Positions 13,531-18,918 of a DNA stretch of 64,000 bases are shown here, one piece after another. The position numbers were made by a program, and so were the translations under genes. How positions within the stretch are numbered: position 1 is the stretch's first letter; every line of letters starts with the position of its first letter. Location of the stretch: NCBI GenBank assembly GCA_014584605.1, contig JACTMO010000039.1:1-64000 (forward strand). Reading direction: 5' to 3'. The notes beneath the pieces were generated by a model. That model saw only the letters and a list, made by a program, of their open reading frames with translations. It was not told the DNA's origin and ran no database searches. This DNA is from Bacteroidota bacterium. Lineage in GTDB: Bacteria > Bacteroidota > Bacteroidia > Flavobacteriales_F > PHOS-HE28.

Positions 13531-14346
13531 CTACTTCTCGCGGGCGATGGGGTGGGCCAGCCCTTCGTGGGCGCGGAGCTCCATCTTGATGGAGCCCACC
13601 AGCACCTTGGCCTGCGCCAGCACCGGGATGCGGTTGCCGTCGTCCGTGATCCACACGTTGAGGTCCTCGTTGCTGGCGAAGATGCGGCCCTCTTGCACCA
13701 CGGGCTGGAACTTCAGGCAGCGGTACCGGCCGCTGCGGATCTTGATCGTTTCGCGGCCCACGTAGCGCATGCGCAGCGGCCACAGCTCATCATCCAGGAA
13801 ACACGGAATGGTGAACTCCTGTCCGGGCGCGATGTCCGAGAGGTCCAGGGTGCGGGCGTAGTAGAAGGCGCTGAGCATGTCCTGCACGTGCATCGGCACG
13901 GCATGGGTGCGCTGCTTCTGGGTGGTCACCACCTGCATGTGCTGCAGGTACACGTAGTCCTGCGTGAAGTTGTAGCCGCCCTCGCTCACGCTGCGCTTGA
14001 AGATCCACGGGAACACGCCGTCGCGGTCGAACCAGGTGTCGTAACGGTCGTCCACCTTGTAGAACAGGTTGAAGGCCCCGAGGCTGCGTCCCACGCCCTT
14101 GGCATGCAGCAGCGGGCGGCCCTCCATGCGCAGGTCGCTTTCGTGCAGCTCCAGCACGGCCTCGCCGGCATCCATCAGGCCGTAGTGCACTACATAGGTG
14201 AGCTTCTCCCCGGGCTGGAAGGCATTGTGCCGGATGCTGCGCAGCGCGTCGCTCCCCACCGTGGTCGCCACGGGCACGGGAGCTTGCGCACGACCCGGAC
14301 CGAGGCCCAGCATCAGTGTTCCGATCAACAGTCCGTTGCGGATCAT
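13531..14346 (-). CDS. DUF3108 domain-containing protein
   Basis: FQPGEKLTYVVHYGLMDAGEAVLEL...; start placed at MIRNGLL. Confidence 0.85.
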   Translation of the reverse strand: MIRNGLLIGTLMLGLGPGRAQAPVPVATTVGSDALRSIRHNAFQPGEKLTYVVHYGLMDAGEAVLELHESDLRMEGRPLLHAKGVGRSLGAFNLFYKVDDRYDTWFDRDGVFPWIFKRSVSEGGYNFTQDYVYLQHMQVVTTQKQRTHAVPMHVQDMLSAFYYARTLDLSDIAPGQEFTIPCFLDDELWPLRMRYVGRETIKIRSGRYRCLKFQPVVQEGRIFASNEDLNVWITDDGNRIPVLAQAKVLVGSIKMELRAHEGLAHPIAREK

Positions 14347-14503
14347 GGCCCTTGTTACGCAAAGGTGGTGCCGATCGGTGCTTCCCCGGTCAGCCGGCTC
14401 GCCGCCGCCTGGTGGGCCGGGGTGTGGGTCGGCGGGTCGCATGCCGCAGGCGGTCCCACCGGTCGCGCGACGCGTCAGGCGCCGCGCAGCCACACCGGAC
14501 CCC

Positions 14504-17500
14504 TCAGAGCACGATGTTCACGATGCGCTTGGGCACCACGATCACCTTCTTGGGCGCCTTGCCTTCCAGGCGGGCCTGCACTTCGGGGTTGGCCAGCACC
14601 TGCTCCTCCACGCTCTTGGGGTCCAGTGCGATGGGGAACTCCAGCTGCAGGCGGGTCTTGCCGTTGAAGCTGATGGGATAGCTGAAGCTGTCCTCCACCA
14701 GGTGCTCGGCGCTCCACTGCGGCCAGGGGGCGGTGGTGACGCTGGCGCTGTGGCCCAGTTTCTCCCACAGCTCCTCGGCGATGTGTGGCGCGAAGGGTGC
14801 CAGCGCGATCACCAGCGGCTCCAGCACTGCGCGCTTGCCGCATTTCAGCGCGCCCAGTTCGTTCACGGCGATCATGAACTGCGCCACGCTGGTGTTGAAG
14901 CTCATCTTCTCGATATCCTCGGTCACCTTCTTCAGGGTGGCGTGCAGGACCTTCAGTTCGGCCTTGGTGGGGGCATCGTCGCTGACGTTGGGTCGGTCGA
15001 CCCCGTGGGTCGACGCCACACCGTCTCCGCTGTAGAACAAGTTCCAGAACTTCCGCAGGAAGCGGAAGGTGCCCTCGATGCCGTTGGTGTCCCAGGGCTT
15101 GCTCTGCTCGACGGGGCCGAGGAACATCTCGTACAACCGCAGCGTGTCGGCGCCATACTTGGCAATGATGTCGTCCGGGTTCACCACGTTGTACTTGGAC
15201 TTGGACATCTTCTCGACCACGGGTTTCAGCTCGATGACCGGAGCGTCCAGGTAATAGTCGCGGAAAGCGGAAATGGAACGCGTTCTATTCGCTCCCTCTT
15301 CGTTGATCCAATATCTGCCATCGCGGAAGGTGACATGGTCCACCGGATAGTTGCGCTCGAAGGCTCCTTCCACTTTATTGTTCAGTGCCAGAAGGCGATA
15401 ATGTTCCTCGCCGTTCCTGGAAGAAGCCAGAACGTTCGCCATCATGCTCATCCCCTGGACCATCCCCTGGTTCACCAGCTTTTTGGCGGGTTCATCAAAG
15501 GGAACTAGGCCGAGGTCGTGGAGGAACTTGGTCCAGAAGCGGAAGTAGAGCAGGTGGCCGGTGGCGTGCTCGCTGCCGCCCACGTACAGGTCCACCTGGC
15601 CCCAATGGTCGATGGCTTCCTTGGCCGCGAAGCGCCCCGCGTTCTTCGGGTCCATGTAGCGCAGGAAGTACCAGCTGCTGCCGGCCCAGCCGGGCATGGT
15701 GGTGGTCTCCAGCGGGTATGCCCTCACCCCCGACCCCTCTCCGGGGGAGAGGGGAGTGCCCTCACCCCCTGGCCCCCTCTCCGAGGGAGAGGGGGGAGTG
15801 CCTTCACCCCCTGGCCCCTCTCCGGGGGAGAGGGGAGGGGTATAGGTCCAGTTCTTGGCGCGGGCCAGGGGTGGCTCGCCGCTTTCGGTGGGCAGGAATT
15901 TATCCACCTCCGGCAGCACCAGCGGCAGTGCGCTTTCCGGCAGCGGGTAGGGAATGTCGTCCTTGTAGTAGATGGGGATGGGTTCGCCCCAGTAGCGCTG
16001 GCGGCCGAATGCGGCATCGCGCAGGCGGAAGTTCACCTTGCCCGTGCCGGCACCGATCCGCTCCAACTCTTCAATGGCGCGGGTGATCGCCTGCGGCACC
16101 TTCAGGCCCTTCAGGAAGCCTTCGCTGCAAATGGTGGCGTCCTTGCGCTCGTCGGCCTCCTTCTCGATGTCGGCGCCTTCGGTCACCGCGATGATGGGCA
16201 GGCCGAAGTGCTTGGCGAAGCGCCAGTCGCGCTGGTCGCCGCCGGGCACGGCCATCACCGCACCGGTGCCGTAGCCGCCCAGCACGTAATCGCCCACCCA
16301 CACGGGCACATCAGCCCCGGTGAAGGGGTGCTTCGCGTAGCTGCCGGTGAACACGCCGCTCACCTTGTCCACCTCGGCCTGGCGCTCGCGCTCGCTGCGG
16401 TTCCTGGCCTTTTCCACGTAGGCCTCCACCTCGGCGCGCCTGTCTTCCGTGGTGAGCATGCCGACCAGTTCATGTTCCGGTGCGAGGGTCAGGAACGAGA
16501 CCCCGAATAGAGTATCCGGGCGGGTGGTGAAGACTTCGATGCTCAATGTGCCCTCACCCCCTGGCCCCCTCTCCGAGGGAGAGGGGGAATGACCCTTACC
16601 CCCGGCCCCTCTCCGAGGGAGAGGGGAGGAATGCCATTCTCCGTCCGAGCCTTCAACGTCTTCGGCCACGTTGCGACGGTTGGCGAGCACTTCCTTGATC
16701 CGATCTCGCACCTTGTAAGGATCTTGGATCACTTCCTCATTGGCGAAGCGGATCACCTCAAATCCCAACTCCTGTAACCGTGCGGTCCGTGCTGCGTCTT
16801 CTTGCTTTTGGTGGTCGTGGATATCACCATCCACCTCGATGACCAGTCGCTTGGGCAAGCACACGAAATCAACGATGAAGCGGTCGATGATGTGTTGCCT
16901 GCGGATCTTGTCCCCGGTACCTGCTCCCCGTATCACTTGCCACAAGCGGTCCTCGGCCTCCGCGGGGTTTTTGCGCATGGTATTGGCATGCGCCATCAGT
17001 TTGCCAGCGACCTCGGGGTCCGCGGTCAGGTATCCTGGGCGTGTCCCCCTCTCCTCCGGAGAGAGGTTAGGGGTGAGGGCAAACTTCACACTGGCCCCCT
17101 CGCTGCGGCCGATCCAGTTGCGCTGGGCCTCCTTGATGCTCTCGCTCCAGTCCAGGCCGTCCAGCCCATCGAGCAGGCGCTGCGCGTAGGCGGTGATGCG
17201 CAGGCTCCACTGCTTCATGCGCTTGCGCTCCACGGGGTGGCCGCCACGTTCGCTCACGCCGTCCTTCACCTCGTCGTTGGCCAGCACCGTCCCCAGGGCG
17301 GGGCACCAGTTCACCCAGGCGTCGCTGAGGTAGGCCAGCCGGAAGTGCTGCAGCACCAGCTGCTTGGTGCGCTCATCGAAGGCGTTCCATTCCGCTGCGG
17401 TGAAGCCGCCCACGTATTGCTCGATGTCGCCGGTGAGCACGCTGGCGTCCTGGCCGCTGCACCCCTGTATGGCGAAGCGTTCCAGCAGTTCGCTGATGGG

Positions 17501-17965
17501 GCGCGCCTTGTCCGCCTTGGCGTCGTACCAGCTGTCGAAGAGCTGGAGGAAGATCCACTGGGTCCATTTGTAGAAGGACGGATCGCTGGTGCGCACCTCG
17601 CGGTCCCAGTCGAAGCTGAATCCGATGGCATCGAGCTGTAGGCGGTAGCGTGCGGCGTTCTCCTCGGTGGTCTTGGCGGGATGCTGTCCCGTTTGGATGG
17701 CGTACTGCTCGGCGGGCAGGCCGAAGCTGTCGTAGCCCATGGGGTGCAGCACGTTGAAGCCGCAATGGCGCTTGTAGCGGGCCACGATGTCGCTGGCGAT
17801 GTAGCCCAGCGGGTGGCCCACATGAAGACCTGCGCCACTGGGGTAGGGGAACATGTCGAGCACGTAGTACTTGGGCCGGGAGGGGTCGGGCGCCACGCGG
17901 TAGGTACCCCGCGCACGCCATTGTTCCCGCCACTTCGCTTCGATGTCCTGGTGCTCGTAGGCCAT
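14504..17965 (-). CDS. leuS: Leucyl-tRNA synthetase carrying two in-frame repeat/DUF559 insertions
   Basis: HVGH and KMSKS signatures, [12 protein letters not shown] editing domain; 1153 aa, open throughout. Confidence 0.95.
15721..15840. repeat. Three tandem copies of a ~42-bp palindromic repeat inside leuS
   Basis: CCCTCACCCCC(T)G(G)CCCCTCTCCGRGGGAGAGGGGAGTGC repeated; core CCCCTCTCC-GGG-GGAGAGGGG; translates [36 protein letters not shown]. Confidence 0.9.
16549..17079 (-). mobile_element. 531-bp in-frame insertion in leuS: DUF559 nuclease-like domain flanked by inverted copies of the 42-bp repeat
   Basis: [84 protein letters not shown]; repeats at 16549-16633 and, in opposite orientation, 17042-17079. 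Confidence 0.75.
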
Positions 17966-18002
17966 TGCTTTCGATCGCCGTGGCCATGGGCCCGGGCGAC
18001 CG

Positions 18003-18010
18003 CGAAAGTA
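18003..18010 (-). promoter_or_regulatory. -7-like element TACTTTCG for leuS
   Basis: Matches the Bacteroidota TAnnTTTG-type element upstream of leuS. Confidence 0.45.
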
Positions 18011-18029
18011 GCGGACCGGCGCGGGCGGG

Positions 18030-18037
18030 TATCTTCG
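18030..18037 (+). promoter_or_regulatory. -7-like element TATCTTCG for ftsX
   Basis: 5 nt before ATG 18043. Confidence 0.45.
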
Positions 18038-18042
18038 CGGCC

Positions 18043-18918
18043 ATGTCGATGGAGCGACCCTACCGGCGCCGTACGCGCACGGCCACGGTGGGTACCGTGG
18101 TGGGCATCGCGCTGGTGCTGTTCATGCTCGGCGTGCTGGGTTTCTTGGTGCTGAACGCCCGCGCGCTGGACCGCTATTTCCGGGAGCATGTGCGGGTGGA
18201 CGTGTTCCTGAAGCGGGGCCTGAAGGAGACCGACCTGATGCAGTTCCGCAAGGCGCTGGACACCGAGCCGTGGGTGCTGGAGACTCGGTACGTGACGGCG
18301 GACGAGGCGGCCGAGCAGTTGAAGCAGGACCTGGGCGAGGACTTCCTGGGCGTGCTGGGCAGCAACCCGTTGCTGGCGAGCATCGAGCTGCGGCTGGCGG
18401 CCACCCATGCCCACCCGGACAGCGTGCAGTGGGTGGTGGAGCGGCTGCAGCAGGACCCGCGCACGCACGAGGTGGCGTACAACGCCGCAGTGGTGCGCAA
18501 CATCCAGGAGAACATGGGCAAGTTGGGGCTGGCCGTGCTGGGTTTCAGCGTGCTGCTGCTCATCATCGCCGTGGCGCTGATCAACAACACCATCCGGCTG
18601 GCGGTGTACAGCCAGCGTTTCCTGATCCGCACCATGCACCTGGTGGGGGCCACGCGGTGGTTCATCCAGCGGCCCTTCCTGGGGCAGAGCCTCTGGCAGG
18701 GCGTGCTCAGCGCCGTGCTGGCCGTGGGCCTGCTGGTGCTCACCCTGCGGCTGGCCCTGCGTGCGGTGCCCGACCTACTGGCCTTCACCGATGCCCGCAC
18801 GCTGGCGTTGCTCTTCGCCGCCGTGCTGTTGCTGGGCATGCTGATCTCGCTGGCCAGCACCTGGTTCGCCGTACGGCGCTACCTTCGCATGTCCGCCGAG
18901 GACGTCCACTGGAGCTGA
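18043..18918 (+). CDS. ftsX: Cell division protein FtsX
   Basis: FtsX-type permease: [21 protein letters not shown]...; [38 protein letters not shown]. Confidence 0.9.

Follow-up and report, generated by a model that had tools for sequence, protein, structure and literature searches.

A homing endonuclease that lives inside an essential gene is generally assumed to depend on a self-splicing intron or an intein. The leucyl-tRNA synthetase (LeuRS) gene of a Bacteroidota bacterium of the PHOS-HE28 lineage raises the question of how a nuclease came to lie within the reading frame of an essential enzyme, and in what form it is carried there. The window analyzed here is the whole stretch of 64,000 nucleotides at positions 1 to 64,000 of contig JACTMO010000039.1, which belongs to the assembly GCA_014584605.1 (G000; 3.7 Mb in 89 contigs). 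A sequence-only reading of this DNA had proposed that a compact mobile element occupies leuS. The features of the locus are as follows.

14504..17965, minus strand: leuS, leucyl-tRNA synthetase, the host gene with two in-frame insertions (1153 aa, uninterrupted frame)
16550..17080, minus strand: full element at site 1, in the leuS frame, composed of a hairpin terminal inverted repeat (TIR), a DUF559 nuclease and a second hairpin TIR
17042..17080, unstranded: upstream TIR unit (5' in leuS), encoding 12 residues
16685..16999, minus strand: DUF559 (PF04480) Vsr/EDxHD-like nuclease domain, chimera residues 323-427, with conserved active-site residues
16593..16628, unstranded: downstream repeat, inner copy, encoding 12 residues
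16550..16588, unstranded: downstream TIR, outer copy, encoding 13 residues
15714..15840, unstranded: site 2, three tandem repeat units in the leuS frame, with no nuclease

The frame of leuS was uninterrupted on the minus strand between 17965 and 14504, through all of the 1153 residues that the sequence-only reading had given it, and the HVGH and KMSKS motifs of G000 LeuRS were intact, as had also been stated. A Pfam profile search, which had been proposed as a check of the DUF559-like nuclease, placed this domain at residues 323-427 with an E value of 5.8e-30 and 103.8 bits against a gathering score of 20.6. The domain follows the N-terminal catalytic part and precedes the editing domain (residues 475-633), and the anticodon domain was detected as well. 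Site 1 is a beta-hairpin turn at the base of the CP1 editing domain. The block reported at 16549-17079 was thus an in-frame insert, but the boundaries quoted for it were not codon-phased. A second functional leuS was sought in G000 and none was found; a single leuS locus exceeded the cut-off in this genome and in each of 10 carriers tested, two of which are single-contig. It is therefore apparent that the chimera must provide LeuRS activity, unless it is processed. Separately, a fragment of the 3' end of leuS (52 codons, 88% identical) was observed at 186-341 of L265 on C43, a 3-kb contig of G000, where it follows unrelated sequence.

The repeat unit consists of a tail, CCTCACCCC, and a hairpin, CCTCTCC-nnn-GGAGAGG, whose stems are 9-10 bp in most copies. 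The expected arrangement, with one GC-rich repeat on one side of the nuclease and two copies in the opposite orientation on the other, was found at site 1, but the three further in-frame units at site 2 had been missed. The outer ends of the site-1 element are GCCCTCACCCC and its reverse complement. The copy at 17042 has decayed, and its folding was no better than that of shuffled sequences. When repeat copies were counted by pattern search in the 3.7-Mb G000 genome, the exact palindrome CCTCTCCNNNGGAGAGG occurred 9 times, compared with 0 for a reversed control pattern. Outside leuS, lone in-frame repeats were found in the genes of MetH, the copper P-type ATPase CopA and a protein taken to be urocanate hydratase; the positions of the lone repeats are C25 (L124, about 2730), C62 (L267, 1906 and 1948) and C64 (L123, 2579), and one further copy lies at a contig end. 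The lone MetH repeat is located at exactly the site that holds a whole DUF559 element in L159, L172 and L175. At LeuRS site 2, a complete DUF559 element is present in G035 and in roughly 10 further genomes, and one or two repeat units are present in G015, G020 and G050. A genome-wide search of G000, which had been suggested for finding the repeat-DUF559-repeat unit again, yielded no such unit; the only other DUF559 (on C65) belongs to a different, mostly free-standing clade. The nuclease unit is therefore not repeated within G000, and it is common in relatives.

Most of these elements had inverted repeats. Inverted repeats above 99% of the null were found for 63 of 82 in-frame elements and 18 of 23 free-standing copies, with arms perfect over 32-42 bp in some elements; the other 19 in-frame elements had no TIR above the threshold. 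In addition, among the members of the genus, the 9 that have a related in-frame element contained more copies of the palindrome than the remaining 36 (p = 1.8e-5, with relatedness ignored).

A clean empty site, which had been expected in related LeuRS, was seen in 18 leuS genes of the same genus, and site 1 was filled in 6 (G000 included). In the 18 empty genomes, NWIG(R/K)S and the FTTRPDT strand are separated at site 1 by a short turn 16-18 residues long, for which VRFPIGEDFIEV is an example, and in the filled genomes (G000, G003, G020, G041, G050, and G054) site 1 comprises about 190-207 residues. In all cases, nucleotide comparison placed the insertion inside the turn, and the TIR ends were mostly CCTC(A/T)CCCC. 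No target-site duplication was apparent by eye around LeuRS site 1, where the sequences are strongly diverged and the empty turns vary in length. Site 1 was also filled in G027 and G034, which belong to other families, and G035 was filled at site 2 instead. Site 1 of G017 was empty, yet this genome groups with the filled G041 and G003, and it retains GGGAGAGGGGA there (L052), which is probably the scar of a lost element. Since G017 is nested among filled genomes and keeps the 9-mer GGAGAGGGG, which in the 212 kb scanned was otherwise present only in repeat units, one loss looks direct. The site-1 turns of L059, L168, L196, and L202 contain short AT-rich repeats, such as TTCAAGATTCAAGATT, that are unrelated to the palindromes.

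In order to describe the distribution of these elements, PF04480 was searched at 1e-20 over 395 genomes of the class, and 149 of them had a match. Among the 150 best matches listed, 69 were in open frames of at least 600 aa and 70 in frames shorter than 250 aa. In the fetched loci, 81 open frames with 350 aa or more contained DUF559, 33 of LeuRS and 48 of other proteins, namely MetH (9), Acs (7), IcmF (5), IleRS (4), RecG (4), RecJ (3), HsdR (3), MutS (2), and others. Among GTDB representatives, a scan identified 80 nearest relatives, named isolates included, of which 73 lay in open frames with 300 aa or more; it added guanylate kinase (Gmk), Lhr helicase, CoA transferase, GH31, adenine deaminase, and aminotransferase to the hosts. 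The domain is terminal rather than internal in a few copies (L169 and L177). In IMG/VR the DUF559s were mostly short and distant, and the sole strong match, L348, was a ValRS chimera. A LeuRS in a Paceibacterota record carried the element at site 1, a case that is provisional because the record is a metagenome bin; this LeuRS was 36% identical to the nearest Bacteroidota LeuRS, and its nuclease was 56-64% identical to Bacteroidota ones. These results indicate that, across Bacteroidota, elements of this one kind have entered many housekeeping genes, time and again at the same positions. Extra insertions had been suspected from long open frames in the ValRS of G000 and the IleRS of G020, and no insert was present in either.

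Phylogenetic analyses were performed with a tree of 57 LeuRS proteins from which the insertion columns had been removed. The occupancy of site 1 required 16 changes on this tree, gains and losses pooled, and at least 11 of these changes were forced by well supported branches. On the nuclease tree, a single clade of LeuRS site-1 nucleases was rejected (p-AU 9.8e-5), a single clade of site-2 nucleases was not (p-AU 0.24), and a single clade of the two together was rejected (p-AU 1.3e-60). One supported clade within the genus holds nucleases of LeuRS, IcmF, and a restriction-type (RM) methylase, which indicates that the element moved between genes. The nearest nuclease from another family was at the same site in 25 of 82 cases, compared with 8.2 expected. 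Nucleases clustered by host family as well as by site; their site fidelity thus appears partial, and part of it may reflect shared family ancestry that was incompletely removed.

The residues E22, D50, E61, D63, and H67 were invariant in 31 in-frame DUF559 members. Profile comparison matched the nuclease to 3hrl (DUF559; 2.6e-31) and to the homing endonuclease I-Bth0305I (3r3p; 3.6e-6). The model of the nuclease (pLDDT 90) matched, in this order, 3hrl, I-Bth0305I, and, more weakly, Vsr, with target-normalised TM scores of 0.86 to 3hrl and 0.78 to I-Bth0305I and a Foldseek value of 1.6e-4 for the latter. No NUMOD-like DNA-binding extension was detected by Pfam, and only repeat-encoded linkers follow the nuclease. 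The pairwise dN/dS of the nuclease domain was 0.02-0.16 where computable, several synonymous distances being saturated, and by this measure the nuclease is under purifying selection.

We regard the anatomy of the element, its in-frame state, the empty sites, the repeated independent occupation of the same sites, the purifying selection on the nuclease, and the similarity of its fold as established, and one loss scar as probable. It is probable that these features reflect a selfish mobile element, consisting of hairpin TIRs and one DUF559 nuclease, that is carried unspliced and in frame and spreads in a homing-like manner. The compact mobile element in an essential enzyme with the frame kept, as proposed by the sequence-only reading, gains support from the empty sites, the independent occupations, the other host genes, and the TIRs; neither a lack of gaps in relatives, nor an absence of DUF559, nor misassembly, any of which that reading had named as speaking against it, was found. 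The element, which lacks both a start and a stop codon, is read straight through, so that it would be expressed as part of the host protein. Its persistence in essential genes may be due to landing in surface turns and to the flexible linkers encoded by the repeats, which would let host and nuclease fold separately. A model of the whole chimera had a mean pLDDT of 72 (moderate), with a folded nuclease at 317-428 (pLDDT about 76-90) between low-confidence linkers at 301-311 and 435-472 (pLDDT 24-58); the host hairpin strands at 287-298 and 475-480 flank the insert, and the model still matched E. coli LeuRS-tRNA structures with a target TM of up to 0.86. In the proposed cycle, the host-nuclease chimera would be made, the nuclease would cut DNA, its likeliest targets being the empty site allele, the hairpin repeats or both, and recombinational repair would copy the element in. 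Repeat units without a nuclease would be remnants or non-autonomous copies. The nuclease presumably drives mobility. Homing to a cognate empty site is favored by the fold, by the repeated use of the same sites, and by the partial site fidelity, the last being a phylogenetic hint.

The same mobile element might, on the other hand, spread without homing and insert almost anywhere, whether its own nuclease or some other machinery is responsible, so that the sites seen would merely be those at which an in-frame insert of 500 bp is tolerated. This explanation is somewhat unlikely, and it has to be weighed seriously: both LeuRS sites are variable surface turns that are filled elsewhere by unrelated short repeats, the nucleases group both by taxon and by site, and different sites within one genus share one nuclease clade. 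However, nearly all LeuRS insertions seen are at two sites, although other loops exist, and nucleases from different families that share a site resemble one another more closely than expected by chance. Structural tolerance of the turns accounts for part of the recurrence, and this part is inseparable from homing in these data.

If the 177 residues were removed by an unrecognised intein-like, intron-like or proteolytic process, the mature LeuRS would be free of the insert. The hosts are essential enzymes, as are the hosts of inteins, and the inverted repeats could pair in RNA. However, no intein (Hint) domain was found in G000 LeuRS by Pfam, and in 22 LeuRS cases the residue after the insert was I, V or L instead of C, S or T and there was no preceding HN, in agreement with the previous statement that the insert is not an intein. 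Nor was there any group I or II intron RNA over the Rfam gathering score at 14300-18200. Furthermore, the frame was open through both repeats in every case used, which removal at the RNA level would not need. Removal is very unlikely in our estimation, even though a protease might conceivably excise the insert, and the insert probably stays in the mature protein.

Accretion of a functional domain, in which the nuclease would serve the host, for example in defence or repair, would agree with the purifying selection on the nuclease. It is hardly to be expected from an insertion that is patchy within one genus, is found at two sites of LeuRS and in unrelated enzymes, and had no match in a defence library, and we consider it just as improbable as removal. 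An assembly artefact, which the 89 contigs of G000 and the many relatives that are metagenome bins might suggest, deserves practically no credence and is already refuted by cultured isolates carrying the chimera, including Cellulophaga baltica DSM 24729, Gillisia mitskevichiae DSM 19839, and Leeuwenhoekiella marinoflava DSM 3653, as well as by the six species of the genus with the insert and by the single-contig genomes G348 and G174, in which the chimera is the only leuS.

The DUF559 elements resemble several known systems. Rickettsia palindromic elements (RPEs) are likewise palindromic mobile DNA that lies within the reading frame of protein genes and seems to remain in the product; according to these sources they are about 100-150 bp and have no nuclease (PMC10969869; in-frame example, PMC5656822). 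The DUF559 elements, which share these features, differ in their length of about 450-700 bp, their conserved nuclease, and their recurrence at the same sites of the same genes. With I-Bth0305I they share the catalytic fold and recurrence at fixed sites of conserved genes. Known EDxHD homing enzymes are either free-standing or housed in self-splicing elements, and their DNA-binding tails are long (PMC3943268), whereas neither a splicing element nor such a tail was detected in the DUF559 elements; one DUF559 gene has been assigned to the EDxHD homing family (PMC9403480). REP/REPIN sequences with RAYTs also show tailed hairpins, in inverted pairs around an enzyme gene, together with lone copies (PMC3116915, PMC8266576). 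The inverted pair is present in the DUF559 elements, but these have a DUF559 nuclease instead of an HUH/Y1 transposase, a low copy number (9 in G000), and repeats inside coding genes. In Thiomargarita, a PD-(D/E)XK_2 (YhgA-like) nuclease has been suggested as the source of inverted-repeat MITEs (PMC4853749). Inverted repeats linked to a PD-(D/E)XK-type nuclease are the common feature, but the nuclease family is another one, and the hupL MITE lies in a gene described as disrupted and incomplete, and is not in frame (PMC4853749). Inteins are also in-frame, nuclease-bearing insertions at conserved spots of essential genes, but the DUF559 elements lack the splicing domain and junction residues. 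None of the RPEs, EDxHD enzymes, REPIN/RAYT systems, and Thiomargarita MITEs combines all these features.

A search of open-access literature turned up no earlier account of in-frame DUF559 elements. It is tentatively proposed, with the chances not quite even, that they constitute an undescribed class of mobile element, in which a homing nuclease with hairpin ends, no longer possessing a start and stop codon, passes from allele to allele and from species to species in conserved genes, its insertion being rendered harmless to the protein by repeat-encoded linkers and not by splicing. The elements suggest a third way for a homing nuclease, which is to remain in the protein, at a surface turn and between flexible linkers. 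They are common across Bacteroidota, cultured type strains included, and they imply that an unrecognised nuclease is present in many of the annotated housekeeping enzymes of this phylum. How selfish DNA becomes a protein domain is testable with the LeuRS, IleRS, MetH, and MutS chimeras.

Two observations concern free-standing DUF559 genes. Those of L225 and L233 also have long inverted repeats (up to 66 bp), which belong to other sequence families. In G099, a genome with 11 matches, two free-standing DUF559 genes were located in tandem at 2788352-2789239 of C1.
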